Positions 8,752-36,100 of a stretch of DNA of 64,000 nucleotides are shown one piece after another (position 1 is the first letter of the stretch; the number at the start of each line of letters is the position of its first letter). This DNA is from Bolinopsis microptera. Its lineage: Eukaryota; Ctenophora; Tentaculata; Lobata; Bolinopsidae. Position numbers and translations under genes: made by a program. The notes under the pieces were generated by a model. That model was not told the DNA's origin, made no database searches, and was given only the letters and a program-made list of their open reading frames with translations. Location of the stretch: the NCBI RefSeq assembly GCF_026151205.1, contig NC_087077.1, positions 10,097,983-10,161,982 of the forward strand, given 5' to 3'.

Positions 8752-8809
8752 CTTTCTGGAGAAGAAACGACTCGCAATTGCTGCTGGAAAGATTCTCTAA
8801 ATGTAAATT

Positions 8810-9244: not shown

Positions 9245-9658
9245 ACCAAGTAATATACTCGTTGAGTTCTGATGCTAAGTTCCGATAGTTATTCTCTCGA
9301 TAATGATAAGTGGGACATAATTCAGCAGTCGTTCGACTTGCGAATTTTCATTTTTGCTCTTGATGGGCTTAAGCCTTAAATTATCATGTTAATTTTAATT
9401 AAATAAATTTCAATCAGCAAAGAAAAATTGGAAATATTCCAAACCATGCTCTATTCAATTTAAAAATATCTACTTCTATTCTTTGGCATTTTTAATGACG
9501 TTGCAGATTTTCGATGATATTTTTAGAGACAGTATTACAGTACCCATTACATTGCTAATTTTTCTTTGCAGTTGCAATGCAAGCTACAGCTGCGCACGCG
9601 CAGATTTATTGATTTAGATACGCGTATACGCACAGCAAATTGAAATATTGAGTTAAAT

Positions 9659-11485: not shown

Positions 11486-11609
11486 ATGGAAGCCGTTCCA
11501 CGGCAGAGACTGACAAGAGCCTCCAAACAGAATCAGAGGGACTCAGAGCCAGAAACGGATCAGATGCTTGACCCCATCGATCAGTCATTTAACTGGGGTA
11601 TCATAATTG
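11486..11609 (+). CDS. variable first coding exon A of arylsulfatase locus
   Basis: An ATG at 11486 opens 41 codons plus one base and ends at donor ATTG|GTGAGT (phase 1). A strong acceptor, CTTTTCCAG, ends at 11460, so the coding start sits in an exon preceded by at least one non-coding exon. The peptide is polar, basic then acidic (QRLTRASKQNQRDSEPE), as expected of a cytoplasmic tail, and ends FNWGIII. Spliced to the transmembrane exon at 33112 it continues in frame with D-Y-I-L-L. Assignment to the sulfatase gene is inferred from strand, phase and shared pattern with the other exons. Confidence 0.6.
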
Positions 11610-13613
11610 GTGAGTTATTACTTATTATAGACGATTTAATTTTCTAAATTTTCTTTACTCAATTTGTTACTTTGTTGTAAAAGTTGCCGTTTGGCGACAG
11701 CCTCTCTCTCCGCCAAACAAGCAGTACTAAAGAAGTAAAGAAGCCTCCGAGGGTCCTCAAGTAGTGCGAAAGTCTTTTTCTCGAACGGAATAATTTGCTT
11801 ATAATACCAACAACATGTTAGTGCTAATTACCCAATGAACAATCAGCACGTACTCAAATACTGACTGCTGGACGTGCTTCAATTGGACCACTGCACCGAA
11901 CTTAATGTAGGAAATATGTCACGTGGTTTAGTTCCGTGCTTATGATTGGTTTATTTCGGTGCGTTTGTACGTGTTATAAAAATACTTTAGTTTTTTACAA
12001 GCGTATTCTATTATACGGTGTATATAGGTTTAAATTACTTGTTTCGCCCGTGAAATGACTCATGTTTTCTTGTGTTGCCTGCATTCTCCTATTCGATGTG
12101 GCTAGTATTACACTTTAAAGCACTTTCATGAAAGAAAATTGTGACCGAAACTTGTCTGTATCCAATTGAAATTAGTACGCAATTCTGCACTAAAGATTGC
12201 AGCTTCAGTTCCTGATCTAACTATCTAGAAAACATGTATCTCCACTGAGTATACCAGATTAGGCACATAGCCGACACTAAACGAGGGTAGAAGTTGTGTT
12301 TACAGTTTAAGATGTTTCCTTGTATTCTGAAGTCTCATGACACATTATCCTCTCTTCAATGTCAGATCGAGTAATGTTTCATATAAGTAGCCTTTATTTC
12401 GGCAGCATTTTATTATTTTACGTACAAATTCTATTAAGATATTGAAAAGCCACACAAACCCAGCTTATTGTCAAATATAAGGAGTTGCCTGACAATTTGT
12501 GTCCTGATTTTTTAATACTTTCATCACTATTATATTATGACTAAAAAAATTTGAGATACAGATGGAATGTGTGCTTTTATTAAAAGTTTCTGATTCCATT
12601 TTAACTTAAAATCCTGCTCTGCTTCTTCCTGAATCGACTCCAGAGAAGAAAACTCGTTAAATCAGTTACTATCAGTATGCCTATAAGTATAAATGCCGAT
12701 GCGAACCAATCATTGTTTAGAACAATTTTATGATCTCCATTCTCCACAATTCCGATTCGTTTACAATTTATTGAGACCCTTAAACGTAAGTAAACACGGC
12801 GGGTGATACATTTTGGAACGATTTTAAAAACATAAATGCTCTTTTTTCACTGTTATCATGGCATCTCATTTAATATATTTTGAACTTTTTGCATCTTTTT
12901 GATATTAGAAAATCACTTTGAAATGTCAATTCTTTTGCAATGATTGTATTGGCGATTCTGGTAGGATACAAGCAATACGGAAAATAGCAAATCGCGGGTA
13001 GTGCAGCCATTTGCCTTTTGGAATTATTGCTGCTCTTAACATACTTCTCAGGCTCAAATTTGGAGCCTTTAGGTACTCTCAGGTTGGATTGTTCAACAGC
13101 GTGGCATACAAGGTTATAGTCTTTTGCTTAGATTCCTGGCAGTTCAAGATGTACATATAAATTTATAAAAATGATTCTACTATCCGATTTTTTCAATGTT
13201 AAAAATCTAATCATGAAACACGTTTAACCCTAACCATAGTTAAGGGCGTCAATTTTATTCAATTGTTCACAGCGATACCAATTACCAAGTACACAAATCT
13301 CAAATCTGATAGAACGAATAACGGCCGATGCAGGTGCAAAAAAGTACGGTATTAGGTCAATAGTGCGATTCCACACCCACTTATATGCTGACTCTTTCGC
13401 TGATGCACTTGTTTTAATTGAATTTATAATTATATGATTGAAATCCTTTTTGATTTGAGTTATGATTGAAAATAACTTTATTTTGCTTAACAAACATTTA
13501 AAAACATGAGAGTTTTGAGAAACCATTTAAAACTTTTGAGGTAACAGCCATTTGATTTAAACCATTCCCGAGTTTTCTGTAACCATGCCAATTAATGAAG
13601 GAGATCAGAAGAC
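11610..13613. other. intronic or intergenic sequence between exons A and B
   Basis: No coding exon with both a start and a good donor was found. A GTAAGT at 12783 was tested, but its phase-1 frame contains no ATG. Otherwise the stretch is AT-rich, with no repeat array. Confidence 0.4.
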
Positions 13614-13776
13614 ATGAATGTCGGTTCCCACGAAGAACCAGCTTCAAGTTCCGCTAAATGTGAAGAGGGAGTGGACACAGCTCCGGTGCCGAGGAGACTC
13701 CGTTTTCGTCTCCAAAGAGCCGCCACTCAACCCATCATTGACCTGTACAACAACTACAAGTGGGATCTCAAGGCTC
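13614..13776 (+). CDS. variable first coding exon B of arylsulfatase locus
   Basis: An ATG at 13614 gives 54 codons plus one base and ends GCTC|GTGAGT (phase 1). The peptide is polar (EEPASSSAKCEEG), then basic (VPRRLRFRLQRAA), and ends in a Tyr/Trp-containing stretch (DLYNNYKWDLKA) resembling the LYNWYKG and LYRRVKG stretches of exons E and F. An AG at 13607-13608 would also let this be used as a symmetric phase-1 internal exon. The first-exon reading is preferred by analogy with its neighbours. Confidence 0.6.
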
Positions 13777-15553
13777 GTGAGTAACCAGTCACTCGTTGTT
13801 GCATTTATTAAACTGAGTCAAAGAATTAGATATCGAACCAAATAAAGCATGTTCATTTAGCTATTCTCTTTTAGAATAACTCGTTTCGTAACTCGATGAT
13901 CAAATTAAAGTAACATTTTTTAGTTCATGTTATTCAACTGAATCATCGAAATTCAAATCAAGTTGCGCTATCACTATAGTTCGAACTAATTAGCTGTGTG
14001 TAGGGGGTGCACCATGAAAATAAACTTGCTCGGATTTTAAAAATTTTTGTACCATTGTTTTCTAGAGACTGTGAAAATTTTCACAGTACTAAATTTGTCA
14101 TACCTTTTTGGAAAGATCAGTGAGTTTCGTCTAGGTGCCATATTTGATGGTGCGCGGCTTTTGGAGCAAAATTAGCTGTAAAAGTCGCGTAATTTGACCA
14201 AATTTGACCAAATTCGTTGATTTTTGTCGTATTATTTGGATATATCTTCAGTTCCTTGAATAAGATCATTCTGAAAATTGGTGACGACCTTCCAATAGGG
14301 CTTTCACAACTGTCCGAAAAATTTGGTAGATATCGGGGTTGATATAGTGATCAAAATGGGGCAAAATACGCTGCTTTTAGCTGTAACATAATGTCTGATG
14401 GTTGGATATGCTTTAAACTTTTCGGACACTTTCCTTGTAAGTCTATGAGTAAGCTTACCAATTTTTGTTGCAATTAGAGGTCGGGAAAGATACTTAATAT
14501 CTATTTGTTTGAAGAAAATTGTGCTGGCCGAAATTAGCGCTAAAAAACCATCCTACAGTCGGCACGCGCGGCGCGGCTCACTGTCGATGGCGCACTACCT
14601 ACTGTGTGATATTAAAATTAGAAAATTCTGACCTTTTCTCGGGCGGTAAAAAATATGTTTATTCGTGCTTCAGTACAGACTGAGAGGCCCATGAATAAGG
14701 GCCGGTTTGATCACGATTTTGATTATATTTATGGATTATGAAGGAGCACATGTTTTAATTGCAAGTGGAGAATTTTCCTCGACTTTGAAACCATCCTAAA
14801 GTTTAAAATCTGTACTTGCATTTTCTGTAACTTGAAAATATGATTCGACTTCGATTTATATTTTAACCATTTGAAGGTTGTCCAAAGAGTTTGTAAAAAT
14901 GATCGATACTAAGATAGCAAAATAAATTAAGTCACCAAGTTATAACGCTACCTGAGGTGCCGTGTAGTTCTAAGTATGGAACTGGGAGTCGGAACTTTTA
15001 TATACTGATCGAGGATTGATTGTTATGGCGAACGAGATCAAGTTGATTAAATCAATTTTGGAAAGTTTCGGTTTTGAAAAAGATTAATTGTATCATTGCA
15101 GGGATTCAAATTATTGAACCGTATTTTTTGCAGCACCACCGTTTTCAGCGTTCTTTCTCGAACCATTTGTACTGTCTCTTTTAATATTGAATTTAGAGGA
15201 CACCAGGACTGTAAAATTTCATTATCCTATTCCCAAATTGGTTTGGGAAATCATCATGTGTGTCTCAGTATGTGTGTCTCGTGGCACCCGTGATAATTTT
15301 ACAGTGATGAGTAACTCAATTGTACTGACCACATATTTTGTTTGTGAGTGTCTTGTGGTTCACTTTCCTCCAGGACCAGCTTCAATCTGTTTAGAATTAA
15401 GATTTTCAAGCTTAAATCGCTATAACCGAAGCTTATATAAACTGTGGAACTTTGAAACTTAGCTTCCATTCGATCTCCATTTTTTTCACGAGATCATGTA
15501 ACCATAATAATTAAAATTAGGCTCTTTGACATAAAGGTCGCTTTGATGTAAAC
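13777..15553. other. non-coding sequence between exons B and C
   Basis: AT-rich with a GC-rich patch near 14560-14600. One small frame at 15024-15086 (ATG GCG AAC..) has only a weak possible donor and was not called. No repeat array or RNA gene was recognised. Confidence 0.4.
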
Positions 15554-15647
15554 ATGAACAGTTACATGTCCTCCGAGAGCAATACTAATGATGACCAAAA
15601 GGATGGATCTACGATCAAACCCTGGCACAAGACGAAACGCAAAAGAT
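15554..15647 (+). CDS. variable first coding exon C of arylsulfatase locus
   Basis: An ATG at 15554 gives 31 codons plus one base, ending AGAT|GTAAGA (phase 1). The peptide is Ser/Asn/Asp-rich and ends in a strongly basic stretch (KPWHKTKRKR) that would lie directly on the cytoplasmic side of the transmembrane helix encoded at 33112, as the positive-inside rule predicts. Junction codon T|AT gives Tyr. The combination of ATG, good donor, phase and basic end makes it one of the more convincing short exons. Confidence 0.58.
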
Positions 15648-16161
15648 GTAAGAATTGAGGAATTTGTTATGATTATTTCCTGATTATTAATTACTACTGC
15701 ACTTGTAATCGTTAACAGCTTTTTTAGTCGTTTAAGCATGAAATATTTTTAATGTGACTACATGTAAGAAAGCATATCTATTGTCAGAAAATGAAATATT
15801 AGAATTAAGGCATCCTCTGTTCATTTCAGACCACTAATTTTCAGTTTACTACAATAAGAGTCAGGAATATCTCTTATTTCTCTTAAAATATCCTAAATCA
15901 AATAAACTGCAGCCTTATTAGACAACTAATCTTATGAAATTCATAATAAAAAGAGCTAAAATAGTGAAATGACTATAATTTCACTACAATTATCAGGAAA
16001 ATCTAAGTAAACTGTTGCACTGAACGTACGTCTTTCTGCGCTACCTAAATTAATTTTGTATCTCGTTTTTATCTTTCTGAAGCGGTACTAGGGTTGTACA
16101 TAATATTTTACGAATGATTATAACCGTTAATATTATTTAGAAAGTGCATTTGCTTTGGTTT

Positions 16162-16520
16162 TTAGTTTAGACTCTGTAGCTCAGACCTGCTCAGAGTGGT
16201 CTGTAGTTTATACCTGCTCAGAGTGGTCTGTAGTTCAGACCTGCCGATCAGAGTGGTTTGTAGTTTAGACCTGCTCAGAGTGGTCTGTAGTTTAGACCTG
16301 CTCAGAGTGGTCTGTAGTTCAGACCTGCTCAGGGTGGTCTGTAGTTTAGACCTGCTCAGAGTGGTCTGTAGTTCAAACCTGCTCAGAGTGGTCTTTAGTT
16401 CAGACCTGCTCAGGGTGGTCTGTAGTTTAGACCTGCTCAGAGTGGTCTGTAGTTTAGACCTGCTCAGAGTGGTCTGTAGTTCAGACCTGTTCAGAGTGGT
16501 CTGTAGTTTAGACCTGCTTA
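16162..16520. repeat. 27-bp minisatellite
   Basis: About 13 copies of a 27-bp unit, GTAGTTTAGACCTGCTCAGA + GTGGTCT with TTTAG/TTCAG variation; one copy carries a 3-bp insertion (GCCGATCAG). Because 27 is divisible by three and the unit lacks stops in some frames, long open frames appear on both strands. They are repeat artefacts. Confidence 0.95.
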
Positions 16521-16717
16521 CGCTGGTCATTGGTCAACACAACATACCACTGTTGTATGTAGTATTTTGACCAGCGTCCTTTTTAGTTCTTACAGCGGTT
16601 TGCACTACAAACGCTGATCCGTACTAAAATCTCCACACTATTTTGTTGTGAGACCGGAAGTCTAAGTTACCAGTAATGAGTTGCCGCAATATAACAAAGT
16701 GACTAGGAATAAGCTAC

Positions 16718-16814
16718 ATGAGCATAAATGTTCACTCTAAATATCCAGCGGACAGTTTTATTTCACGGTACCTACGTTACACAGTTTGCTTACATTGCCT
16801 TGTATATGGGGTAC
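16718..16814 (+). CDS. possible variable first exon D
   Basis: An ATG at 16718 gives 32 codons plus one base, ending GTAC|GTAAGG in phase 1 like the other variable exons. The peptide (ending RYTVCLHCLVYG) is more hydrophobic than the others and lacks the basic or acidic tail pattern. It may equally be 5' untranslated sequence of exon E, which starts 110 bp downstream. Confidence 0.3.
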
Positions 16815-16924
16815 GTAAGGTGTACTTATCCGTGTGTATCAGTTTATATTTTATGAGTCTGCTTCCTGCTGCTTTGTGTTCAGATACGTCCTTATTATTA
16901 AGCTAAATTTGACGACCTTACTTT

Positions 16925-17288
16925 ATGTCTACAAAAGAAAGATACAGGTACAGTGAGCTTCCGACAGAGCCAGTATCTGGTCATAGGAACATGACATCAG
17001 TAGAAGCAGAGGACATTGAATCCTCACCTAACAAATACGTCAACCTTCGTCTGAACAATTCATCAGAGACTGGGGGAACCGGAAGAGAGGTTCCAGAAGA
17101 CACTGGGATCCAGAGTAACATACAGCTGGATGTAGGAGAGATTGAGGAATCTGATGAATTCAAAAACACGACAATTCAAAAACTTTACAACTGGTACAAG
17201 GGTATTTTTGTTGGTTCCATAACGGATTCAGAGGTGGCAGGCATGATCAGCGCTTACGGAATGTCTCTCAAGACTTTCCGCGGTCACC
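16925..17288 (+). CDS. variable first coding exon E of arylsulfatase locus
   Basis: An ATG at 16925 gives 121 codons plus one base, ending GTCACC|GTAAGT (phase 1). A second in-frame ATG at 16991 aligns with the start of exon F and may be the real start. The tail is acidic and polar, followed by a conserved block, LYNWYKGIFVGSITDSEVAG (to about residue 107), then MISAYGMSLKTFRGH. Exon F has the same block (LYRRVKGVFVEPISEEE.., KEVADIIKAYGRPLRTIWMH), so E and F are diverged duplicates. With the constant exons the product would be about 709 aa. A single unspliced reading would run on past the donor and stop at 17408-17410. Confidence 0.75.
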
Positions 17289-18017
17289 GTAAGTTCCATT
17301 TAGTTTTATTTAGTTTTATTTATTATTTGGAAGAGTGGTTTTCCTTTTATCACGTTCAACCAACGGAAATAAAATGTAATTCTGTTAAGTTCAAGTTGGA
17401 GAACATCTAAACATGGAGCTGGTCAACATTTCGCACTGGTCCTGTCAGTTACTATTTACATTCACAACTGGGTAGTATTCACCTTTAGTGTCCACGAGTT
17501 ACTGGGCAAATTTGTGTTAATGAATCTAAATCTGGGTTCTAACTTATGTGGGTATAGTGAGGCCTTGGAGAGTCGTCTTCAAGCACATTATCCCACGATT
17601 ATCTAGATTAGTAGATTACGAGAATAATCTAAGTCCAAATTACAACTACAACTCAAAATTACGTTGACCTCTACAGGATCTCCCAGCTTGAATTCCTCGT
17701 TTAAAATCAACTAATCACAGAGACGTAACCAATGGGTACACCCTCTCAGCACAACACCATGACACTTATGTCTAGAAGTTGTATTTATAGTGAACAATTA
17801 CGGGATAAGGCCTCATAACACATACAACATACTTAGATGTTTTATGTAAGCCTCTATGAACCATTCCGACAAGTTGTAAATTTGTTAATCTACCCTCCTC
17901 CGTTTGTCCTGTATTTCTGGTTGGGTAGTTGAGTTTTATTTCATCAAATAGTTGATTTCGTCAACGAAATAAAAGTACACTAAGCTACCATCTGAGACCT
18001 GATCAAGCCAGAGCAAC
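17289..18017. other. intronic sequence between exons E and F
   Basis: No exon with start, donor and phase was seen. One 20-codon frame at 17413 lacks a phase-1 donor. Confidence 0.4.
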
Positions 18018-18309
18018 ATGACTTTAGTAGAGGACCTGGAAGCATCACCTGATAAACACATCCCCCTAAACCTGGACACACAACCTGTGGAATCAGGAGT
18101 AGCTGTTGAAGATACCATAAGTATCACAGAGCTGAACGGGGGAGAGCGGGTAGCGGACCCGGGGTCTAAGATCCGGACCTTATATAGACGGGTCAAGGGG
18201 GTGTTCGTGGAGCCTATCAGTGAAGAGGAGGACGATCGACTCACAGATAAGGAGGTGGCAGATATTATTAAAGCTTACGGAAGACCGCTCAGAACCATTT
18301 GGATGCATC
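18018..18309 (+). CDS. variable first coding exon F of arylsulfatase locus
   Basis: An ATG at 18018, with an in-frame TGA six codons upstream, gives 97 codons plus one base, ending GCATC|GTAAGT (phase 1). The start MTLVEDLEASPDKHIPLNL matches exon E's MTSVEAEDIESSPNKYVNL, and the end carries the shared KGVFVEP..TDKEVADIIKAYG block. The peptide is acidic at the start, with basic residues near the membrane side. Spliced to 33112 it yields a 685-aa product. The clear likeness to E, 1.1 kb upstream, shows exon duplication within the locus. Confidence 0.78.
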
Positions 18310-18856
18310 GTAAGTTCTAGATTTGGTTTTTCTGTGTTGTTGTATTGGTCGGGGTTGAGGGGATACAGGGGATGCTGTAACAATACACTTAAATAACTAC
18401 ATAGCTACAACATGTTTTGTTGCAGCAAAATAGCGTAACTTTTGTTGTTTTTTTGGGAAATAAGATTTACTTGGGATTTTGAAACAACTGTTTAATCTTT
18501 TAATGAGGAACACGACGATTTGGGCACGGCAGGCTGCACATATAGTTCTATAAAAGTATAAACAGAAATTAAAATATTATATCAGGGTCGTCCGTAATAA
18601 GCATCGTATGTTTCATTGAATATTGAAAACTGCTAGACTATCGGTTTCGGTTTGTACCTAATTATTTTATGCATGAGTAGTTTAATGAACAGTAACTTAA
18701 TATTATATATCAACGGCTCAAAAATTGTGTATTAAGTGCTCACATAAAACTTTTAATTATGTTACACTAGAAACCCGCCGCTAGTCGAAAGCTTTGTTCG
18801 AGGAAATTTTAAGCATCAGTTATGTTTTAATTTCTCTTCATCATATAGCCCCAAAA

Positions 18857-19230
18857 CGATACTTTTTACCGCATCAAAAAATTTCAATCACAACCAAAGT
18901 TATAAATATATATAGGTATATAGCGTCATGAGGGTAAATGTGAGCTAGTTGTGAAATTCTGATATTTCAATCGAGAATGACAGTCAATTGAATTATTGCC
19001 AGGCAATTAAAATGTTTAACTGCGCAAAGTTATTTGCGTAATTAGAAAACAACAATATTTTTGTTGATTGTGTGTGCGCGGCGTCATGTCAGCATTGTGT
19101 GTAGCTCTAGCGAATTTAGTATCGAAAAAAAGTATCGATACTTTTTACTGCATCAAAATATTGCAATCACAAACAAAGTTATAAGAAGTCATAGCGTGAG
19201 CGTAAATGTGAGCTAGTTTTGAAATTATGA
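18857..19230. repeat. diverged direct duplication
   Basis: About 110 bp at 18857-18970 (GATACTTTTTACCGCATCAA .. AAATGTGAGCTAGTTGTGAA) recurs at 19137-19230 with about 85 percent identity, spaced roughly 270 bp apart. The sequence in between is not repeated. This is either a duplicated piece of a dispersed repeat or two insertions of the same family. Confidence 0.6.
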
Positions 19231-20074
19231 CGTATCATACAGCATAACAACACGCGTTGTTAATCTGTGGTTGCTCGCGCACGTGCATTTTTATCGTTGC
19301 TACGCAACAGCGCAGTAAACCTTTGCTTAAATAACGCCATTATTCTAACGATTATTTAACCTCACTTCCGACGTTAATTATAAAAAATCTAAAGCCTAAA
19401 TCAAAATTCTAAGAATGCTATAGCCTATTCCTATCCTTTTTCTACAACCCTGCTAAAAATGGCGAGGTTTCCATTTGCGAGCTGGGTTTGGCATCACCAG
19501 AGGGTCATTTTGAGGTCGATTTTCGGTGTTTTTTCTTCTATGTCCCCGTTGCCGGGGAAATTTCGTCAAGTTTAAAATATAATATAGATATGTGATAATG
19601 TGATATGTAAACAGGAAATTTTGGGTGTTTACAAATCATATAAAATAGTAAAGTCATTAGTTTAGGCTTTCAGGATAAATACTTGGAGTAAAGCAATATT
19701 GAAAATGACTAAGTTTGTTGATAAGTTAACTTCGGCGTGACCACAAATTATTTGTGCGGTGTGGATAAAATCTGTCAACACTATAAATTAGCTATAAATA
19801 CCCTGACTTACAACTAATATTGAAGATCATTAATACCGAATTTCGTACTTCTAATTACCTTTATACCTAGTCATCAAATTAAATATCATTTTTATTATCA
19901 TCATAGCTAATCACAGAGCATAACCACAGAAAATGTATCTCCACAAATTGTTGTTGACCGTGCGTTCTGCAGAATAAATTTACACCTAATCATTTTCCTA
20001 CTTTATTATTATGCCTGGTTAATCATCTTTGTTCCGCTTGTTTTCTGTACAGCAGATCAAACTTCTGAATGAAT

Positions 20075-20186
20075 ATGAGGGGAAGGCTGCGATCAATATT
20101 CAGCGATATGATAAATCTTTGTCAACATGGCCACGAGTCCGTTAATAGTATGGACCATAACTTTAAACAGAAGATGAGAATTATCC
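20075..20186 (+). CDS. variable first coding exon G of arylsulfatase locus
   Basis: An ATG at 20075 gives 37 codons plus one base, ending ATTATCC|GTGAGT (phase 1). The peptide begins basic (MRGRLRSIF), is polar with His and Asn in the middle, and ends FKQKMRII next to the membrane exon. An acceptor-like TTTCTGTACAG lies 23 bp upstream, so a further non-coding exon is possible. It lies about 250 bp from the 3' end of the antisense LINE at 20434. Confidence 0.55.
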
Positions 20187-20433
20187 GTGAGTATTACTAT
20201 TAGATAAATTGACATTTTACATTTATGTTAAGTAAACTTGATGTTTTATGAAAGTATAAAGTTTATTCGGACACAGAAATATTAATATTTAGTGTTCGTT
20301 ATTCCACATGAATTCATCGACAAACAGTTTTATTCCAGTCATGTACAAGCTGCCCTAGCAACTAACGAACCAAATTGGGAATTATTCGAGCTCTAACCGA
20401 ACCAAATTTTATCTGTCAAATCTGCCTACCTGC

Positions 20434-23400
20434 CTAGGTCGATCCAGATGAAATCTGGAACGAGTTTCGTGTCAACGCTTCTCTCCATTTATCCCTATCA
20501 CACATGAGTAAACGCAGCTGGTCAGGTTCCAGTCCAGTGTCTTCAAGAAGGACGTCCGGGAAGGTCTTATGTGGTCGTCCTCGATAACGCTGGCCATAGG
20601 ATGGTTGCCAAAAAAGGAGTTGTTGAGCAGGTTGGTCCTGTAGACGATAGACATGTCCTGCAAAACGAAGTCTTCGTGTCTTTATAGTATCTGTCACAGA
20701 TGGAATCTTTCCGTAAAGAACGGAGTTAGGTGTATGTGATTTCCATGAGATACCAAAGACCCTTCGTAGCATTCTAGTATAAACACCGTCTAGTGCTCTA
20801 ATATCAGCCTTTTTAAGAGTCCAGGTTTCTGCACCATACAGCAGAACAGGTTCTACTGCAGTTCGAAAAATCTTAGTCTTGATCTTCCTAGACATATTAG
20901 ATTTCCAAAAAGCATCTAGACTCTGCAAAGCTTTCCATGCGAGACCTTTCCTGACATTGATGTCTCTGCTTGTTGAGGCTATAAAGGATCCAAGGTACTT
21001 AAAGTCATGAACTTCTTCTAAAGGGATGCCGTTAATAAAGACTCTATCGTCTGAGTTGGCAGGTCGCGGGATGTTATAGGACATGTATTTGGTCTTTTCG
21101 ATGTTAATAAGGAGACCATAACGGGCTGCTATGTCAGAAATGCTTTGGCAAAGGCGGCCATTTTCGCTGAAGCTGTCAGTAATTGTTGCTAGGTCATCGG
21201 CGAAGTCCAAATCAGCAATGTAGTTACTTCCAACTTTAAACCCATCACGTGGGCCTATTGCCAGTCTTAGTATGAAATCCAGGACGATGATAAAAATGAG
21301 AGGTGCAAGAACATCGCCCTGGAGAATTCCGAGGTTGGTAAGGAATTCTAAGGTTATCCCTTCAGGGGTCATGATTTTAGCCTTAGTGTTGATGTAGAGT
21401 GACATAATGGCTTTTATGATTTTTTTAGGAAAGCCGTAGGAAGCCAGTATGTCGGGAAGATGCGATCTGAAGATGCAGTCAAAGGCCTTTGAGAAGTCAA
21501 TAAAGGAGATGACACAAGGAAGCTGGAAGTTCACAACCTCTTCGATGATACGTCTAAGAGCCAGAATCTGTTCACGAGTCCCTCTTCCAGGCCGGAAACC
21601 ATTCTGGTTGTATCGTAGGCGAGGTTCTATGTGGCTCCTGATTCGGTTTAGAAGCAGCCTGTTGTAGATTTTCGTGGCAACAGGGAGGATGGAGATGCCT
21701 CTGCTATTTTCAGGACAAAACTTTTTAGCTCCTTTGGGTATAGGAAGAATGGCAGTGACAAGAAGCTCTTCCGGGGCTTTACCAGTAGCTAGCATGTTGT
21801 TGAACAGAGATAGTAAAGTAGTGTCCAAGTCAACACACTTGTACAGCAGAGAAGAAATTCCGTCATGACCGTACGTGTCCTTTGTCTGCTTGAGAGCTGT
21901 AGATAGTTCATCTGCTGAGAACGGTGACGTTTCAATTGGGAGTTCTGGCTTTTGGACTTCAAAGCTACCCATTCTGATGTTGTCAGCAGGATTGTAAAGC
22001 AGTTTGCTGTAGTGGTCAGTCCACGCCTTTGCTCGATCTGCCTTGTTTCTGTATCCAGGTAATTGAGACATAGATTTAGGCTTATGATTGGTAAGGTCAT
22101 TTATAAGCTTCCACGCAATACCAGAGCTGTTTGACTTCGTCTGCCATGCTGCATACCCTGGTTGGTTTGCGGGTTGCGGAATAAACAGCTGATCTACTTG
22201 ATCAATTGTCTTATTAACAAACGCTTCTTGTATGCTGGTTTCGACCTTCCTGACTTCAAGGGTGGCATCACGGAGGGCTTTAGTAGCAGCTCGTGTCTTT
22301 CTTTTGTGACTATCTTTCAACGCAGCATCTCGTGCCTTGACAGCAGCCCGGTACTCAGGATTAGATGAAATCTGAGCAGTTAGACTAGTCTTCTTCCTTT
22401 TGGGAAGTACTTTCTCTGCTGTGTCATTAATAGCACTTATCATGTTGGTGTATGCATGCTGGTTGTGTTGGACGAGGTCATCAGTCTCGTTCTCTTCATC
22501 CATTAAGGCAGTGAACCTGTTCTGGAGATGGAGTTGGAAGGCTGTTGAAGTTGCAGTGTTACTTTTTAACTCCTCCCAGTCATACTTGATTACCTTAGGT
22601 CGGACGATGTTGGTCCTTATTGACAGCTTGATAGTCGCTGTGACAATCCGATGGTCAGATTGAACCGAAGGATTAATGTATGACTCACAGTTTTTAAGTG
22701 AATTCTGCCATTTTGAGCGAATGAGGATGTGGTCATTCTGATGCAGTTGACCATTTGGTGCTGTCCAAGTCACCTTTTTAGAATGCTTTTTGTTAAACTT
22801 TAGCGCACCGATGGTGAACGCGTTTTCTTGGGCAAAATCGAGAAGATGCTGTCCGTTTCGGTTTGTACATTCATAAAACGCGTTGGTGTTGCAGGTGTCT
22901 TTTCCAAGGTGAGCATTCAGGTCGCCAGCTATAGCTACTACGTCATGAGGTGGAAAAGATCGGACACAAGAAGTTAACTCTGCATAGAACTGTTCAACTT
23001 CAAGGTCTGTAGATACATTAGTAGGTGAATGACAAGTAACTAAGTGTGTGCAAACTTCACCGGTAAAAGAAACAGACATTATCCTGTCTGAAAAGACGTT
23101 ATGGTCGATGTAGCAGCGTTGGGCCCAAGGGGAAAGAAGGAAGCCAAGTCCAAGGAGTGTTCTACTTTTAGGGGGAGGAGATGCTATGAGGAACTTGTAG
23201 CCATCACGCATTATATAAGGAGTCTTCTTAATACGATGCTCTTGAAGAGCAATCACAGGTATGTCAAAGGTTTTGGCTTTGCACACAAGTTCCCATTGCT
23301 TCCATTCTTCAGTGAGAGATCTTACATTATAAGTAGAAAGGTAAAAGGATTCTGAGATTTTTTTGTTAATTTTTGGTTTTTTGATGGTCCTTCTTTTAAC

Positions 23401-23574
23401 CCAGATACCATCAGCTGCTTTTCTCCCCAAAGGGTTTAAAGGTGCAGCGTCATCATGAGCTGGACTATCAGAAGGAGAGGTAGGGGCTGAAGCCCTAGTG
23501 CTGTAGTTGTTTAGTTCGTTGTAATGTTGATAAACGGGTGCGTGGCAATAAACTTTGCGAGTACCAGAGTAAAG
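20434..23574 (-). CDS. LINE polyprotein: AP endonuclease + reverse transcriptase
   Basis: The single frame is open from 23574. A TTG at 23430 gives 998 codons, and about 48 further open codons lie upstream with no ATG. Counting from the TTG: endonuclease about residues 30-270 with YNVR (34), QEHR (E64), GDLN (169-172), NDH (232-234) and SDHR (258-261). The reverse transcriptase runs about 555-800 with FRPGRGT (612-618), FIDFSKAFD (643-651), ILQGD (702-706) and the catalytic FADD (743-746; FADD instead of the commoner YADD). A C-terminal region with YGAETWTL and RMLRR follows. It nicks target DNA and copies its own RNA. Motifs fit an APE-type LINE; the clade (RTE, CR1 or I-like) is not certain. 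The lack of an ATG at the start suggests a missing upstream start or a mutated initiator. Confidence 0.92.
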   Translation of the reverse strand, partial: LYSGTRKVYCHAPVYQHYNELNNYSTRASAPTSPSDSPAHDDAAPLNPLGRKAADGIWVKRRTIKKPKINKKISESFYLSTYNVRSLTEEWKQWELVCKAKTFDIPVIALQEHRIKKTPYIMRDGYKFLIASPPPKSRTLLGLGFLLSPWAQRCYIDHNVFSDRIMSVSFTGEVCTHLVTCHSPTNVSTDLEVEQFYAELTSCVRSFPPHDVVAIAGDLNAHLGKDTCNTNAFYECTNRNGQHLLDFAQENAFTIGALKFNKKHSKKVTWTAPNGQLHQNDHILIRSKWQNSLKNCESYINPSVQSDHRIVTATIKLSIRTNIVRPKVIKYDWEELKSNTATSTAFQLHLQNRFTALMDEENETDDLVQHNQHAYTNMISAINDTAEKVLPKRKKTSLTAQISSNPEYRAAVKARDAALKDSHKRKTRAATKALRDATLEVRKVETSIQEAFVNKTIDQVDQLFIPQPANQPGYAAWQTKSNSSGIAWKLINDLTNHKPKSMSQLPGYRNKADRAKAWTDHYSKLLYNPADNIRMGSFEVQKPELPIETSPFSADELSTALKQTKDTYGHDGISSLLYKCVDLDTTLLSLFNNMLATGKAPEELLVTAILPIPKGAKKFCPENSRGISILPVATKIYNRLLLNRIRSHIEPRLRYNQNGFRPGRGTREQILALRRIIEEVVNFQLPCVISFIDFSKAFDCIFRSHLPDILASYGFPKKIIKAIMSLYINTKAKIMTPEGITLEFLTNLGILQGDVLAPLIFIIVLDFILRLAIGPRDGFKVGSNYIADLDFADDLATITDSFSENGRLCQSISDIAARYGLLINIEKTKYMSYNIPRPANSDDRVFINGIPLEEVHDFKYLGSFIASTSRDINVRKGLAWKALQSLDAFWKSNMSRKIKTKIFRTAVEPVLLYGAETWTLKKADIRALDGVYTRMLRRVFGISWKSHTPNSVLYGKIPSVTDTIKTRRLRFAGHVYRLQDQPAQQLLFWQPSYGQRYRGRPHKTFPDVLLEDTGLEPDQLRLLMCDRDKWREALTRNSFQISSGST

Positions 23575-24060
23575 CTAGGGGTTGGTAGCCCACTAGCAAC
23601 AAGTCCAAGATCTCAGGCAACTAAAAATGACTGATAAGAGAACTGAGGGTCTGCAGCCACACACAGACAGTGAGGGAGAGTAAAATAGGGGGGTTTTGTG
23701 CCTCAGTACACAGAACCGTAAGTCATCAAGCTGCGAGGAGTTTCTTACAGCAGAAGTAGGCTAGAAACTCTGACATCAACATGTTTCTAGTTAAAAGGGA
23801 GAGTGTTCTGAATAACTCTGATGGCCAGACTGCCATCTTGATGTCCGCTGGAAGTAGTGCGCTTGTCGCATCTGCCACTCAGCATACCTGCAGCAGGCAG
23901 GATCCTCTGAAGCTTTTGCTACACGGCGTTAACTGTATCCGTGCATTACCATTCCCGGGTGTCAGTAGCGCGAGTCTACTGCTCGGACCCACTCCTATCC
24001 AGAGTGAGGAACAAAATCTGACTTCTACAAAGTCACCAAAATGCATGATTTGGGAACTAT
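20434..24060 (-). mobile_element. full-length non-LTR retrotransposon (LINE), antisense to host locus
   Basis: The body is an uninterrupted endonuclease-plus-reverse transcriptase frame. A GC-richer leader of some 480 bp (to roughly 24060) upstream of the frame on the minus strand is probably the 5' untranslated region; its edge is inferred from base composition only. The 3' end lies near 20390-20433, where AACCGAACCAAAT and AACGAACCAAAT are near-direct repeats 32-35 bp apart. No poly(A) tail or convincing target-site duplication was found. The absence of stops in about 1000 codons implies recent insertion. Confidence 0.75.
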
Positions 24061-24199
24061 ACATTTAATTTTATGGGCTTTAGTGTAATTAACTGTATAA
24101 TGTATTTTATCAGATGCATTTGTGGAGAAGGTGGTCTACTTGCACCTTTTCCACATTATATAATTCAGGTACATTATAGTGGATATGGGTTGGGATTAA

Positions 24200-25546: not shown

Positions 25547-25550
25547 TTAA

Positions 25551-28020: not shown

Positions 28021-28150
28021 TTCACACTTTACAGTCTCACTTTACAGTCTCACTTTACGGTCTCACTTTACGGTCTCACTTTACGGTCTCACTTTACGGT
28101 CTCACTTTACGGTCTCACTTTACTGTCTCACTTTACAGTCTCACTTTACA
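28021..28150. repeat. 13-bp minisatellite
   Basis: Ten copies of CTCACTTTACGGT, with ACAGT at the ends of the array and ACGGT in the middle, a symmetric arrangement of variants. Confidence 0.95.
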
Positions 28151-30525
28151 ATCCCTTGCTAACTTGAAACTTCTGAACTGCTTACACGATTGATGTATAC
28201 CTCCGGCCAGCTAGTCCGTGTTTTTTTCTTACAGCCTGATCATTACTTAGTGATACTGATCATAATTAACATATCAGCTACAAAATTTGAGGATTTATAG
28301 TTCATATAGTGAATTAGGGACTTCATAACTTTTAAACTTCTAGAAGTAAAGGACGGTGATAGCTATAGTGCAATCTATTGTACAATCTAGGGTTATAATT
28401 ACACATACCTTATTGAGTATTTCTATTTTATTAGATCTCAGTAAAGCTACAGTTCAAACAGATATAAGCGATAAATAGTGACATCTATCAGTTAACTTAG
28501 TCTAACGTGAAACCTCAATCTCTACGCATGCTGAAGCGTGCGTCTCTGAGTATGATCAAATTAGGAATTACGCTGGAAACAGTCTGTAAGACTGTAAAAG
28601 TTTGAAGGAACATGACAGATTGAACTCCAAAACTGAAGAGATCTCGAAAGACTTCTCAGTACCCATAAAGTTACAGAACGCTAGTCTGAAACTGAACATA
28701 ATTATCACCTAGATCATTCATTAAAACGTCCTACAAACATCAAGGAGGGAAAATATTTGTATCACTAGATGGTGTTAGACTACGTTTTTCAGCAGCTGGA
28801 TTATATTTTGAGGATGTTATACCATGGCTTCCCTGACAAGTCGGTAACCGTCATATTTTATGATTTCCGTCGAAGGTTCAGCTTCTGATTTTAATTTGGA
28901 ATTTCAGCGGAGGCATTTTTAATGTTCATTATAAATTCACATAGCAGGCTAGGAAGTTTTCCAGCGTTGATTGACACGCGGTAAACATTTTGATGTGACA
29001 ATCTAAGTGCTGTTTTAAATTGTACGCGTTACTGCTTTGATTTTTTGAAACTAACGTTACATATTGCTACTTATTTCAGTTACTTGTAATTAAATTAAGT
29101 CAAAATATTCTAAGTTTTCTCAATAATTACCAAATATTTTGACATTTCAAGTACCTCTAGAGCACTAGTATATCATTCATTCAGTTGGGTTTGAACGCTG
29201 AAATGTATATTGTATACCGTTAACATTTGAATTTTGTAAATGCATTATCTTTCCAGGCGATCTAAGTGCAATCCATAAAACTTTAGTGGTTGTGATTGGA
29301 CTTTTGGTTTTTGTGGGTTGCTTAGAGCTGACCACTATGAAACAAACTAAGCTAAAGCTATAAATCTCTCAGACGAAAGTTAAAAATAGCAAGATTAGTC
29401 TACCCGGAAATTAGGGAAGCAAGATTTAACTAAAATAAATTCCAATTGTTAAATTGAATTGAAAACAAGTGCCCGCCATTTAAAGATAGTTGTCATGGCA
29501 AAATCTATAAGATTGAAAAGTTCATCGACATTTTATAAGCTTTAGAACATTGAATTTAGGTCGGACGTAAATAAGTTAGATAAATTAAATAACTCAATAC
29601 ATCTAACCGTTTCCAAGAAACGGTTTGCTCCGGTCTCTTATCTTCTTATTATAATTAACTTTAAAACATAGCGATGTTGAGCTCTTGTTTAAGCTTATTA
29701 AATTGACAACATAGTAATTTTGTGCTCTTGTTTAAGCTTATTAAGTTAACAGCATAGTAAATAGGTGTTGAGCTTGTCATAACTTAATCTTTACAAAAAC
29801 CTACTATATACTGTGTGTAAGACAAAAAGTTAGTAAAATAACTTAAATAAATAAATGCACGCTAGGTTTAAATTTATATTTTAAGGCAAAACAAGCCCAT
29901 AAATTGTAATATAATCACCATAGAAACTGGCTCACAACTTATTAACTTTTATTATATAGTTGTCCCATAAAACTATAAAATGATCCGCGAAGATCACAAG
30001 GAAAGGTGTAAATTCTTGAATTGTGATAAAGGTGTTAAACGTTTGTTCAATCCTAGACAGTGTCTTCATTTAATTCCATACAAAGTTTGAATAAATCCAA
30101 CATATTCTGCTCGGTCATTAATACGGCTCTCTCTCTTTCACTCTGCATTACTCTATCAGTACTTAATCAAATTAGACATCAATTTTCGACTAATCAGTGC
30201 TTCCGTTTTCTCAGCCAATTTTTCCTCACTTCATTGCTGTAGATCAGTAATCTCTGCAGTTGATCACTTCTTGATTTTATAATTTAACTAAGAATTGATT
30301 GTGACTTTTAGCTCATCAACCTGTGACTATAATATTATAAATTTTGGTTTAACCATCCATACCGCACTTTTGTAATTGTACTGAATTTCTATTTCCGTGA
30401 ATGTCACATTATTACGCTAAAATTGTGAGATAGTTAACAAATCATAACCAAATTCACACAACTTCGGTTGCTATCCTTCTATCGTTAGAACAACTCATCC
30501 CACTATACAACACGACACAATATAT
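28151..30525. other. intronic sequence without supported exons
   Basis: No exon with a start and a good phase-1 donor was found. A diverged direct duplication of about 60 bp lies at 29650-29760 (CTCTTGTTTAAGCTTATTAA twice). Confidence 0.4.
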
Positions 30526-30842
30526 TGTGACTGTGTGTCGTGTGACTGTGTGTCGTGTGGAGCTGTGTGACTGTGTGTCGTGTGGCTGTGTGTCTGTGTG
30601 TGACTGTGTGACTGTGTGTGACTGTGTGTGACTGTGTGTGACTGTGTGTCGTGTGACTGTGTGTCGTGTGGAGCTGTGTGACTGTGTGTGACTGTGTGTC
30701 GTGTGACTGTGTGTCGTGTGGCTGTGTGTCGTGTGACTGTGTGTCGTGTGGCTGTGTGCCGTGTGACTGTGTGACTGTGTGTCGTGTGACTGTGTGACTG
30801 TGTGTCGTGTGACTGTGTGTGACTGTGTGTGACTGTGTGTGA
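30526..30842. repeat. compound GT-rich tandem repeat
   Basis: Irregular tandem arrangement of GTGACTGTGTGTC and GTGTGGCTGTGTGTC units. It creates long His/Ser/Thr-rich open frames on the minus strand that are repeat artefacts. Confidence 0.95.
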
Positions 30843-31816
30843 AGGACTCTGATATACAGGATATGCAATTTATCATCAGTTTGCATATTTGGAAGGTATC
30901 GCATCAATTAGTAGTGCTAACACCTTAGCTCTCTGGTAAATTGGCCAGTCAAGGTATACCTTATTTCTCGAACTGTCGTGGAGTAAATGAAACAGCACGG
31001 TGTAGACTGCCACCACACAGCTTTGATAGTTATTTCTCTGCAGACTCTAATATATATATAATATATAGTAGCTGTATGTTTGGAACTTTCCTGTTTTTGT
31101 TGGATTTTCTCTCTACTTTTCTAACAGAAGCTTAACATGCGCCGTTTTGTCGTCGTTGAAAGTTTAAATGGTGTTGAGGAAACAGGACGTAACTGAAACT
31201 CATGTAGGCAACCATATATAACGAAATAAGATATCTCACAGAACTTTGGTTGGCTTTACTTTCACTACTTACTTTCACTCTTTAAGTTATTTTTAATTGG
31301 ACTCTAATTGTAGTCGCCGTGTTATGTTGGATTTTCTCAAGCTTATAAAGTTATGAGTCGCGACTGTCGTAATTTTGAATTTGTTTTGTCGGTAACGATA
31401 CTTTTAATTTAGAACTATTAGAGTCACGGCTACGCTAGCGAAAATTGTAGAGTAGCCTTGAATAACAACACCGAAGAAATTGTTATGTTGCAAATATGGT
31501 CAATGGGTATTGGGACACATTCACATCACTTTTGACTTTGTTTTTTTGGGCAAATTTCTATTGATCCCGTTTGATGCGACAAGGAAAAGGCTCTTGGAAC
31601 ATTTCAACTATGCGACTTATAGATTATATTCCAATCCAGATTTTACATGAACTTTTGACTTTCTTTACACATTTAATTCTTCATTTCATCCAGCTTTTCC
31701 CACTCTAAAAGTGTCAAATAAATAACCAGGAAAGTGCTAAAAAAGGGGCTGGACAACTTTTAGCCGTACAGAATGTGAAAATAACGTGACAAAGTAGCTA
31801 AAGTTGTCCCAGAGAG

Positions 31817-31928
31817 ATGGGCAGCCAGATATTTGAGAATGAGGAGGATGGGCTGACTAAAGCTGAGAGGGAGGACATGACCCCCTGGCAGAGGTGGTGC
31901 GGCTGCAAGAACAGTCTGGAGAGGAAAC
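31817..31928 (+). CDS. variable first coding exon H of arylsulfatase locus
   Basis: An ATG at 31817 gives 37 codons plus one base, ending GAAAC|GTAAGA (phase 1). It is the exon nearest to the constant part, 1.2 kb upstream of the transmembrane exon. The peptide is acidic (ENEEDGLTKAEREDM), then has Trp and Cys (TPWQRWCGCKN) and a basic end (SLERKR) beside the membrane helix. CGC next to the basic end could be a palmitoylation site, but that is a guess. With the constant exons it gives a 625-aa enzyme, the shortest well-supported form. Confidence 0.72.
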
Positions 31929-31937
31929 GTAAGAGTT

Positions 31938-32080
31938 GCATTTCTAGGTTATATTTGTTATGTTTTTGTCATATTTTGGTTATATTTTTGCCTTTTGTCA
32001 TATTTTTGCCATATTTTTGTCATATTTTTTTCATATTTGTGTTATATTTGTCGTATTTGTCATATTTGTGTCAAATTGAA
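31938..32080. repeat. degenerate TCATATTTTTG simple repeat
   Basis: A T-rich tract made of variants of TCATATTTTTG and GTTATATTTGT follows directly after the donor of exon H. It is low-complexity with no coding value. Confidence 0.8.
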
Positions 32081-32282
32081 ATACGACAAATTGTAGTTTT
32101 AAACTAATTACAACACTACAAATCTATTACATTTATTGAGAATTATGTAATGTAACGTGATGGAAATATTTTAAACGGGCATATCCTGTCCAAACCCAGG
32201 ATGCCCTACATGACATGAAGAATTCGTTGTAACTTTGTTTGAAAAGCATTAATGCACTTAAATTGTTATATGAAATTACTTA

Positions 32283-32362
32283 ACGGGTGATACTCGTAAA
32301 ATATTTGTTCGACCGTCGACGAGTCCAACTCGGCGCGCGTCCTGGTAGGTTATAAACCTACA
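32283..32362 (+). repeat. dispersed GGGTGATACTCG repeat, copy 1
   Basis: ACGGGTGATACTCG followed by TAAAATATTTGTTC, a CGTCGACGAGTCC core and TGGTAGGTTATAAACCTAC. The same series recurs at 50897, 51341 and 52878, so it is a short interspersed family. The 3' part GTAGGTTTATAACCTAC is palindromic. Confidence 0.75.
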
Positions 32363-33111
32363 AGAAATTACCAATATTGTTCCCCGAGATATTGTCGGGT
32401 TTGATACATCATTTTATGGTAGAATTTGCCTTAGCATATATCTGATGCTGTTTAATAATTCAATATAATCAGTAGTTTCAAATGATTTCTTGAGCTTTTG
32501 TCGCGTTTGGTAACATTTTGTTGTGGAGAATGACGAACATTTTGTTAACTTCAGCGAGTCATAAAATACAAATTTCCACATTTTTTATCAAAATTTGGAC
32601 CTTCGGCCATTTTAATTTTCATCAATTATCATGTTAAAATCTAAAATTAAAATCGTTCGAGTAAATTACAAATAATTATTAGTTGGGATGTTGCAAAATT
32701 TCAGTTCGAGTTGGAGCAAAGTTCCAAACCTGGACGAGCTGCATACTTAAATATTTCTGAACTTTTACAAAGAGGTTTTAAAAATAAGTTTTTAAAGCAG
32801 TATTTTCATAGACTTGGAGACTGTAACGATTTATTTATCAATTTATCGTTTTAGCGTACAAAATAAACTTTTAAACTAATTTTAGGGTATAATTCTTAAA
32901 GTTCACAGTTTCTTGGAACTGCTTTTCACGTACTTGTTATAAAGGTCCTGGAACTCGCTTTAAAACAGGGCTTTTGAGGGAACTTTCCTCCAGTCCTCCT
33001 ACTATAAATTTGATTCCAGTGGAAGAAGAGTGAAGACCAAAACATTAATTATACAACCTCTCAGTAACATTGCTAATTTTATGAACACTCATTAACATTG
33101 CTAATTTTCAG

Positions 33112-36100
33112 ATTACATTCTACTGTTCCTGTGTATAGTGATAGTGGTAGCAGTGACCCTCTCCATCACAATCACATCCTTAAGCAAAAGTGTTCACAAG
33201 GTTTGTTTTCACTAATTAGCTAATTGTAGTCGTGCTTTTTATAGTAACCTTATTGGCCCTAATTATTTATTTTGCCCGATTAGGACCGGAGTTTGCAGGC
33301 ATTCGGAGAAACCGCTGTAAATTGGGGTTCATCCGGTACATCACGGTTATTAATGTTCGCATAATCTGATAATATTTAAATTAATCAGAATTACTTTTCC
33401 CAGGAAGGAAAGCCTCACGTGGTATTGGTTATCGCAGACGACATGGGCTACAACGATATCGGATACTACAACCAGTTCGGGGACATTAAAACTCCGCACC
33501 TCGACAAACTTGCAACGTTCGTAATTAATTGTTCAGTTAAGCTAGCAATATTTTTAAGAATTTACCAATACAAAAATACGAATTACGATTAATTGCCCAA
33601 TTCTATCATGACTCCTGTCATTAGCTGTACAAATAAAACTCTCCCAGGGAAGGAGTAAGACTTGATAGATACTACGGACAGTCTATCTGTACTCCAGCTA
33701 GAGCAGCACTCTACACTGGACGATATCCTTATAGGTAAGTCCATCTGTACTCCAGCTAGAGCAGCACTCTACACTGGACGATATCCTTATAGGTAAGTCC
33801 ATCTGTACTCCAGCTAGAGCAGCACTCTACACTGGACGATATCCTTATAGGTAAGTCCATCTGTACTCCAGCTAGAGCAGCACTCTACACTGGACGATAT
33901 CCTTATAGGTAAGTCCATCTGTACTCCAGCTAGAGCAGCACTCTACACTGGACGATATCCTTATAGGTAAGTCCATCTGTACTCCAGCTAGAGCAGCACT
34001 CTACTGCACTGGACGATATCCTTATAGGTAAGTCCATCTGTACTCCAGCTAGAACAGCACTCTACACTGGACGATATCCTTATAGGTAAGTCCATCTGTA
34101 CTCCAGCTAGAGCAGCACTCTACACTGGACGATATCCTTATAGGTAAGTCCATCTGTACTCCAGCTATAGAGCAGCACTCTACACTGGACGATATCCTTA
34201 TAGGTAATTCCATCTGTACTCCAGCTAGAGCAGCACTCTACACTGGACGATATCCTTATAGGTAAGTCCATCTGTACTCCAGTTAGAGCAGCACTCTACA
34301 CTGGACGATAATATGTAGATAAGAACCCAAATTAAGAAGTAAAATACTTGAAGTAATGTACTCTAAGATAATTAGGTGTCTGTAAAAGTATCAAACGAGG
34401 AGATCATTAAATTGAATTTGTCTGATTTACAAGTTAAATACCTAATAAGCACATATAATAATATATGATTCAATATAATTTATAATATAATCTCAGATAA
34501 TTCTTGATATTTGTTAATCCACGAACTCTTCAAAACGCAGCATTGAGACAGTCATTAAAATATTCTTCTTATTAAAGTATTAATAGTTGTTCTCGACAGG
34601 TTTGGTCTGCAGGGAGCTAGACCTATTTTGTATGGTGCCAAGTTGGGTTTACCAACAGAGGAAAAAATTCTACCCCAGGTCAGATTCTGCCGTTTCTCAT
34701 ATCTTTACTGCACTGAAAGTTTCTCCCTTTTACAATTTTTAACCAATCGAAGTAAAAACTAGCACGTTCCTGATTATGGAATACGAAAATTCAAATTTGT
34801 CGTTTTCAAAATCTATTATTCTATATTACATTTCAGATCATGAAGGAAGGAGGATATAACACTTATTTAGTGGGGAAGTGGCATCTTGGTTATTCTAAAT
34901 GGGATTACACCCCCATCAAGTAGGTAGCTTTTATAATGAACACTGAACTATGTATTTCATGGAATAATCATTTTTTCTGCATTTATATGCAGCATCGACA
35001 GAGTCCATTCATTTCATGGACTCATAACTTCCTGATAACTTGATAAGAATACCCCGTACCCAACTTCTCATATAAACACTTCTACCAGGCGAGGATACGA
35101 TTACTTCTTTGGGATGTACGGAGGATTCTCCGACTACTTTACACACATATCCGCTGAACCTGAGAGCCCTGATAACTCAGCTTTTGATCTTCACGAACAC
35201 TTTGAGAAGGATATTCAAACTGGTTAGATTCTCACATTGATAAGTCTTATATTGGTAAGAGAAAGGGGCACATTTCGAATCCGGCCTTTTACAAGATGAT
35301 ATATCTGAGATGAAACGTGATTTGTTATAGCCTTGATATATAATTAAGACTTTATCATTTGATCAAATTAAAATGGTCTTAAAAATTTGGATATGGTATA
35401 GAAGATAACGTGTAGTGAACTACCAGCTCTGTACTGTATTAAAACAATTCTCATCTCAGATGGGACAGTTGAGGAGACGGATAAACAGAATATAAAACTA
35501 ATCAAAGATACGTGGCTGGAGTATTCAGAGAAGCTTTTCACAGATAAAGCAGTACAAATAATCCAGGTAATTATAGCTTCTGGATTATGCTCTGCAGTAT
35601 TAAAACTACAACATCATAATCCGATGCAGAGAGATGGTGCTGCAGTGCCGTGCTTTTTTAACTGTTCGTGAGGTACAGAACAGTGCCGAACAAAAACATT
35701 AATGGACAATTGCGTCACAATTTTGACTAGAAAGAGTAAATGTTAATTTATTCTATCAGCACATAAAAGTATTCCTAATTGTCAGGATCATGAAGCCGAG
35801 AAGGGGTCACTGTTCCTAACAGTCAGCTACATGAACCCTCACAGTCCACTTCAAGTCTTAGAGGACGACCTGAGGAGGGTCCCTTCAAACATCACTAACG
35901 AAGTGAGTTTAGGGGAGAAACTAATTTTGTCAGTCGTATTCAATGTTGGTTTAGAGCAGTGGCGTAACAAAGGGCCCCGCCGACCCGCTGTGCGGGAGGG
36001 GCGGTAAAGATTTTACCGGCGTATCCTCTAAAATCATTTAATTTGTTCAATTTTAGGGAGGGGCGCCAAAAGGGGAGGGGCGCCAACAGGGGGGCGCTTT

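Follow-up and report, generated by a model that had tools for sequence, protein, structure and literature searches.

How does a sulfatase gene of the ctenophore Bolinopsis microptera begin its protein, when the first exon of its recognizable body contains no start codon? The window, by which we mean the whole stretch of 64,000 nucleotides that was analysed (C6, NC_087077.1, 10097983-10161982; G+C 38.0%; genome searched, 264.65 Mb), encodes on its plus strand a sulfatase resembling N-acetylgalactosamine-4-sulfatase (ARSB), preceded by a row of short open exons. An earlier note on this DNA had proposed that these exons are alternative first exons which give one sulfatase many cytoplasmic tails. 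We find that this is still the best-supported reading, with a probability of about 0.75 that the locus is one sulfatase gene whose alternative first coding exons give several cytoplasmic tails, and the layout of a paralogous gene on C2 backs it.

The exon common to all tails (33112-33200) translates as YILLFLCIVIVVAVTLSITITSLSKSVHK and is as the earlier note had described it, accepting phase 1 after the acceptor and encoding a strongly hydrophobic, putative membrane helix (best 19-residue Kyte-Doolittle mean 3.13). The frame contains no Met ahead of the catalytic domain, and therefore the start codon must be supplied by an upstream exon. The blocks that follow (33404-37935; internal exon boundaries approximate) read as a complete sulfatase. 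With its last blocks left out, the protein matched PF00884 at E 2.4e-54 (185 bits, against a cut-off of 25), and its closest solved structure was that of human ARSB, 1fsu (E 6e-75; residues 32-428 aligned, out of the 589 aa common to all forms), with which a second stretch, 490-527, aligned weakly. CTPAR (CxPxR), DD, the K and H of GKWHLG, H, DN, and K are all present in the alignment with 1fsu, whose chain prints A at the position of the modified Cys. We take these residues to be catalytic, or metal- and sulfate-binding, in ARSB, and CxPxR to be the formylglycine motif; judged from its sequence, the window sulfatase is apparently active. Unlike the window sulfatase, whose putative membrane helix continues from an upstream exon, human ARSB is soluble and lysosomal and has its signal peptide cleaved off.

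The candidate exons that could supply the start are collected in Table 1. All eight exons listed in the earlier note (8/8) start with ATG, stay open, are 3n+1 nucleotides long, and end in phase 1 at a GTRAG donor. Several upstream ATG exons match the phase of a single acceptor, and the helix exon has no start of its own, as expected of a type II protein with alternative first exons. Between 11.0 and 33.1 kb the plus strand holds 11 ATG-open phase-1 GTRAG exons of >=90 nt and the minus strand two, while 200 third-order Markov simulations gave a mean of 1.06 (sd 1.0) against the 11 observed. In all 11 tails examined, the ATG is preceded by an in-frame stop at a distance of 0-8 codons, and the tails therefore look like first coding exons and not like in-frame cassettes.

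Table 1. Exons and domains of the window sulfatase gene, and candidate tails of its paralog on C2
Feature	Position	Strand	Splice site	Product and remarks
Tail exon 1	11486..11609	+	donor GTGAGT	41 aa + 1 nt, MEAVPRQRLTRASK...NWGIII; codon score 0.194
Tail exon 2	13614..13776	+	donor GTGAGT	54 aa, MNVGSHEEPASS...NNYKWDLKA; codon score 0.116
Tail exon 3	15554..15647	+	donor GTAAGA	31 aa, MNSYMSSESNTND...KPWHKTKRKR; codon score 0.144
Tail exon 4	16925..17288	+	donor GTAAGT	121 aa; homologous to tail exon 5
Tail exon 5	18018..18309	+	donor GTAAGT	97 aa; homologous to tail exon 4
Possible tail exon 6	20069..20186	+	donor GTGAGT	39 aa; ATG preceded, at 16 nt, by a strong acceptor-like site
Tail exon 7	31817..31928	+	donor GTAAGA	37 aa, MGSQIFENEEDG...WCGCKNSLERK; codon score 0.33
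Doubtful exon of the earlier note	16718..16814	+		codon score -0.38; coding role not supported
Membrane-anchor exon, common to all tails	33112..33200	+	phase-1 acceptor after 'tttcag'	no own Met
Catalytic domain, ARSB-like sulfatase	33404..37935	+		11 exon blocks, stop 37933-37935
C2 tail 1	27.3 kb upstream of C2 membrane exon		phase-1 GTRAG	MTESEVAIGNGIKD...; 4.9% of null frames score as high
C2 tail 2	21.5 kb upstream of C2 membrane exon		phase-1 GTRAG	MTMFVSRNYLLLIRS...
C2 tail 3	19.0 kb upstream of C2 membrane exon		phase-1 GTRAG	MTITMFVSRNYRRLIRS...

Codon usage was scored as a log-odds trained on 1676 codons of this genome's sulfatase genes (window, C2, C6, and L007), and the null consisted of 162 ATG-open reading frames assumed to be non-coding (window 41-46 and 47-64 kb; minus strand 11-20 and 24-33 kb). 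The proportion of null frames scoring as high was 0.6% for 11486, 4.3% for 13614, 2.5% for 15554, 0.6% for 16925, and 0/162 for both 18018 and 31817; codon usage thus supports these six tails. The signal of the exon at 20069/20075 was ambiguous, with 31% of null frames as high (its ATG at 20069 is in frame, two codons ahead of the ATG at 20075 chosen earlier), and 16718-16814 was dropped, with 85% as high. The count of seven tails, and possibly an eighth at 16718, has accordingly become six firm tails and one possible. Other exons that had passed the phase-1 filter failed the codon test, namely 23101, which lies inside a frame resembling a long interspersed nuclear element (LINE; 18% of null frames as high), 23781 (15%), and 27105 (84%).

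The phase of these exons is itself informative. At a codon score of >=0.1, which is near the 95% point of the null and was chosen after the codon test, the plus strand from 11.0 to 33.1 kb yielded six phase-1 exons and none in phase 0 or phase 2, and the minus strand none at all. The comparison sequence (132.7 kb, both strands) yielded seven in phase 1, six in phase 0, and three in phase 2, and several of these have the appearance of real exons. The expectation for the tail stretch is 0.58 phase-1 exons against the six found (Poisson P ~3e-5), and the phase bias has a Fisher P of 0.046. That the six firm exons are all in the same phase fits a common acceptor, and it speaks against the proposal that some of them belong, as first exons, to separate small or nested genes and are spliced to acceptors besides 33112. 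That proposal draws on the introns of up to 21.5 kb that splicing to 33112 would need, on the hundreds of nested intronic genes described for Hormiphora in the relevant part of PMC8527503, and on the insensitivity of our coding-segment scan (31 plus-strand segments in a 22-kb null at the same threshold), which short exons could escape. Yet from 11 to 33 kb of the plus strand no segment rose above the null range except the tails and LINE-overlapping frames, and the C2 paralog repeats the arrangement; we consider such stray first exons highly improbable.

Further evidence comes from tails 16925 and 18018, which are diverged copies showing coding-type evolution. They matched each other by tblastn at E 2e-9, with 45% identity over 89 aligned codons, and by the NG86 method the non-synonymous divergence (dN) was 0.47 and the synonymous divergence (dS) 1.69, which is near saturation (dN/dS ~0.28; Fisher P for the silent excess 2e-5 on rounded counts). 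In 53 ungapped codons, amino-acid identity was 0.53, exceeding 3000/3000 neutral simulations of equal nucleotide identity in each direction, while the other two frames gave 0.35 and 0.25; these blocks were picked from the protein alignment, which biases the comparison towards identity and has to be counted on the debit side of the reading.

Duplication of this kind could also have left behind an array in which only one or two tails are used (e.g. 31817, the closest to the membrane exon), the others being decaying duplicates or the tails of lost gene copies. Tandem duplication has indeed shaped the array, in the case of 16925/18018 and of two C2 exons; a LINE-like frame lies between the tails, and 16718, and possibly 20069, look non-coding. 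On the other hand, the six firm tails retain an open frame, codon bias, a consensus donor, and one phase, silent changes exceed amino-acid changes in both duplicate pairs, and searches with the first half of the catalytic domain and with PF00884, both scoring only the best candidates, turned up no relic of that domain between the tails. We therefore regard a largely decayed array as unlikely. The LINE-like frame itself is a 1046-aa open reading frame on the minus strand at 20434-23574, between 20186 and 31817, and was recognized by eye from endonuclease and reverse-transcriptase motifs.

Tail length ranges from 31 to 121 aa, and charge and short motifs vary as well. YxxPhi, RxR, and membrane-near Cys occur in several of them, but these are common by chance and were not used as evidence. 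The charged, basic membrane-proximal end that the earlier note had ascribed to all tails is present in 15554, 16925, 18018, 20069, and 31817, but not in 11486 or 13614, where the net charge of the last 15 residues is -3 and 0, respectively. Pfam gave no match to tail 18018 joined to the membrane exon, and a profile of the two long tails found no match in the PDB up to E = 1.

The strongest new evidence for variable tails is supplied by the C2 gene, which appears from its sequence to repeat the design of the window and so gives it independent backing. Among the paralogs that were fetched, two have a headless membrane exon that accepts phase 1, namely the one on C2, where the exon starts at G000:C2:16953281 on the minus strand, and a second C6 gene at 2.2 Mb. 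At seven other loci (L001, L006, L007, and L018-L021, of which L020 and L021 are near-identical), a Met and a hydrophobic, signal-like segment lie within the same exon; the N-termini of L022-L024 were not found by the motif script, and L002 and L003 stood outside the comparison. The three C2 tails were drawn from seven phase-1 rows, and the rows set aside were two at 12943, one at 18794, and the second donor of 27899; those at 12943 and 18794 had neither a coding signal nor a copy. C2 tails 2 and 3 are copies of each other, with 61% amino-acid identity, dN 0.25, dS 1.0, and dN/dS ~0.25 (Fisher P 0.002). Within their 600-nt flanks, the sole blastn match consisted of the exon, extended by ~20 nt on its 5' side and 7 nt on its 3' side. 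When the C2 tails were searched elsewhere, matches were limited to the membrane exon and the last few tail residues, and none of the window tails matched the C2 locus above chance; one weak C2 match links the membrane exon, across stop codons, with the final residues of tail 16925.

If each tail exon opens its own mRNA, its 5' end may be formed by spliced-leader (SL) trans-splicing. A pattern first taken from the Hormiphora leader (PMC8527503) gave three matches and led to this genome's own version, most often listed as CAACACTACTATATAACAAATAATTTGAG followed directly by GT. The resulting SL-gene pattern has 829 matches in the genome at <=3 mismatches, and its reversed control none; this genome thus carries ctenophore SL genes. 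In Hormiphora the leader was found on 56% of Iso-Seq reads, a figure that the pertinent section of PMC8527503 calls a lower bound. Thirty-five of the matches stand in tandem at G000:C3:13511056-13533420, with a period near 591 bp, and outside this array most of the matches among those listed are dispersed.

Acceptor-like sites are good before 11486, 16925, and 20069, the best of them lying at 11461, 16884, and 20053, and 3.5-6.7% of random ATGs score as high (for 11486, a site 25 nt before the ATG with a score of 5.7, reached by 4.6% of 285 random ATGs), moderate before the three C2 tails (11-23%), and average before 15554 and 18018. The good sites fit SL trans-splicing. The same strong sites, directly before 11486, 16925, and 20069, could also mean that these exons are internal, and that the array consists of serially joined cassettes or 5' untranslated exons in place of mutually exclusive first coding exons. 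SL trans-splicing explains those acceptors equally well, leader genes being abundant in the genome. Given the in-frame stop that precedes each ATG by 0-8 codons, joining the exons in series would in most cases terminate the preceding reading frame or throw it out of register. We consider joined cassettes improbable, and prefer alternative first coding exons.

Several observations weigh against this preference. Acceptor-like sites are poor before 13614, 16718, and 31817, and over the 11 tails they were only slightly better than before the 285 random ATGs (P = 0.029); since this signal is weak, some tails may be transcribed from promoters of their own. The coarser coding-segment scan lifted only 16925 and 18018 above the null, leaving the other tails within its range. 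A genome-wide search with the seven tails (16718 omitted) at E up to 10 found no convincing relative beyond the window, among the stretches that were scored. The selection tests cover two exon pairs only, 16925/18018 and the C2 pair, and the latter is short (36 codons), with a neutral-simulation P of ~0.02. The codon scores of the two C2 copies are non-diagnostic (28% and 49% of null frames as high), and upstream of the C2 membrane exon 29.5 kb of sequence hold four phase-1 candidates where 1.5 are expected, and one on the minus strand, which is not striking. The bare count at C2 being unremarkable, the argument from this gene rests on exon homology instead. The third gene with a headless membrane exon, the C6 paralog at 2.2 Mb, was examined and revealed no convincing array. 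Finally, the type II topology of the window protein is predicted from hydropathy alone.

At that C6 paralog, a candidate tail, MSKSAVYENTNV..., at oriented position 23980 has a weak donor, GTGTGG, and another at oriented 19735-19850 was rejected, as it ends in phase 2 and its other frame looks, by eye, like a transposase remnant. Upstream of the sulfatase paralog, a myotubularin-like exon with a FYVE-type end (by eye) occurs twice, at oriented 4037-4928 and 8401-9292; the two copies lie 4.4 kb apart and give the same translation, and may represent a recent duplication or an assembly artefact. The paralog itself (L005, C6 2.203 Mb) contains, at 1059-5192, 72 copies of a 57-bp unit that are 97% alike and reproduce the start of the membrane-helix exon with its 3' splice site, and hence dozens of near-identical acceptors. 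The window has an array of its own at 33680-34310, where a 58-bp unit, present 10.8 times with 97% likeness between the repeats, duplicates the terminal part of the catalytic exon encoding ICTPARAALYTGRYPYR, with the formylglycine motif. This unit also holds the acceptor-like tccatctgtactccag and the 5' splice site of that exon, and the intron therefore carries ~10 extra donor-like sites. Two sulfatase genes thus have tandem arrays that multiply a splice site. Elsewhere in the window, a long tandem repeat at 1308-3188 reads on the plus strand as DNWDKKLLVTLLHHP units. A tblastn search of the start of the catalytic domain against phages matched 24 records, all at <60% identity.

The layout had been likened to the clustered protocadherins and UGT1, in which a row of variable first exons is joined to constant exons. 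The likeness is loose: it extends to the row of first exons, but in those clusters the variable exon encodes the ectodomain or the substrate-binding part, whereas the window gene varies only a tail of 31-121 aa before the helix and keeps the catalytic part constant. DPP6 and DPP10 are much closer. The part of PMC3973911 devoted to these genes describes alternative first exons that encode cytoplasmic N-termini and common exons that encode the helix and extracellular domain, with five DPP6 and four DPP10 variants, the two paralogous genes having one layout, as we find here. Unlike the window gene, mammalian DPP6 and DPP10 encode S9B peptidase-like proteins without catalysis; the ctenophore locus differs in its apparently active sulfatase, in the diverged copies among its tails, and in possible SL capping. 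ECE-1 is likewise a membrane enzyme with a cytoplasmic N-terminus, and the account of its isoforms in PMC2567069 gives four tails, ECE-1a-d, arising from alternative promoters and differing in subcellular location; it is, however, a zinc metallopeptidase, with four tails against six or seven. No sulfatase precedent for alternative tails appeared among the literature matches listed, in a search that left subscription papers largely outside its reach. The design is thus already known from DPP6/DPP10 and ECE-1, and what is new is the enzyme family, the phylum, the number of tails, and the use of the design in two paralogs.

We infer that the tail exons are transcribed and that each mature mRNA would carry exactly one of them (six firm, one possible), its donor spliced in phase 1 across 1.2-21.5 kb to 33112. 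Translation would yield a protein of ~620-710 aa with type II membrane topology, in which a variable cytoplasmic tail and one helix would precede an ARSB-like domain facing either the Golgi lumen or the cell exterior. The precedents of ECE-1 and DPP6/DPP10 suggest that the tails may decide where a single catalytic domain is stationed, and when, through sorting, anchoring, or turnover. A separate 5' end is probable for every tail exon, and SL trans-splicing, which is widespread in ctenophores, would account for at least some of these ends. A bolder version, which we put forward only tentatively and think somewhat doubtful, is that in ctenophores SL trans-splicing allows long arrays of individually capped tail exons to serve as interchangeable cytoplasmic addresses for membrane sulfatases, and that these arrays have expanded separately in at least two paralogs.

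Ctenophores have been argued, in the portion of PMC10232365 that treats their placement, to be sister to all other animals. If the exons are expressed, the window gene would equip one ectoenzyme with a large repertoire of alternative cytoplasmic tails, and clustered variable first exons would have arisen outside vertebrates too. The choice of tail may, moreover, be tied to SL trans-splicing. Should the idea of interchangeable addresses be true, this lineage would diversify where an enzyme that edits the extracellular matrix acts, and not what it cuts.

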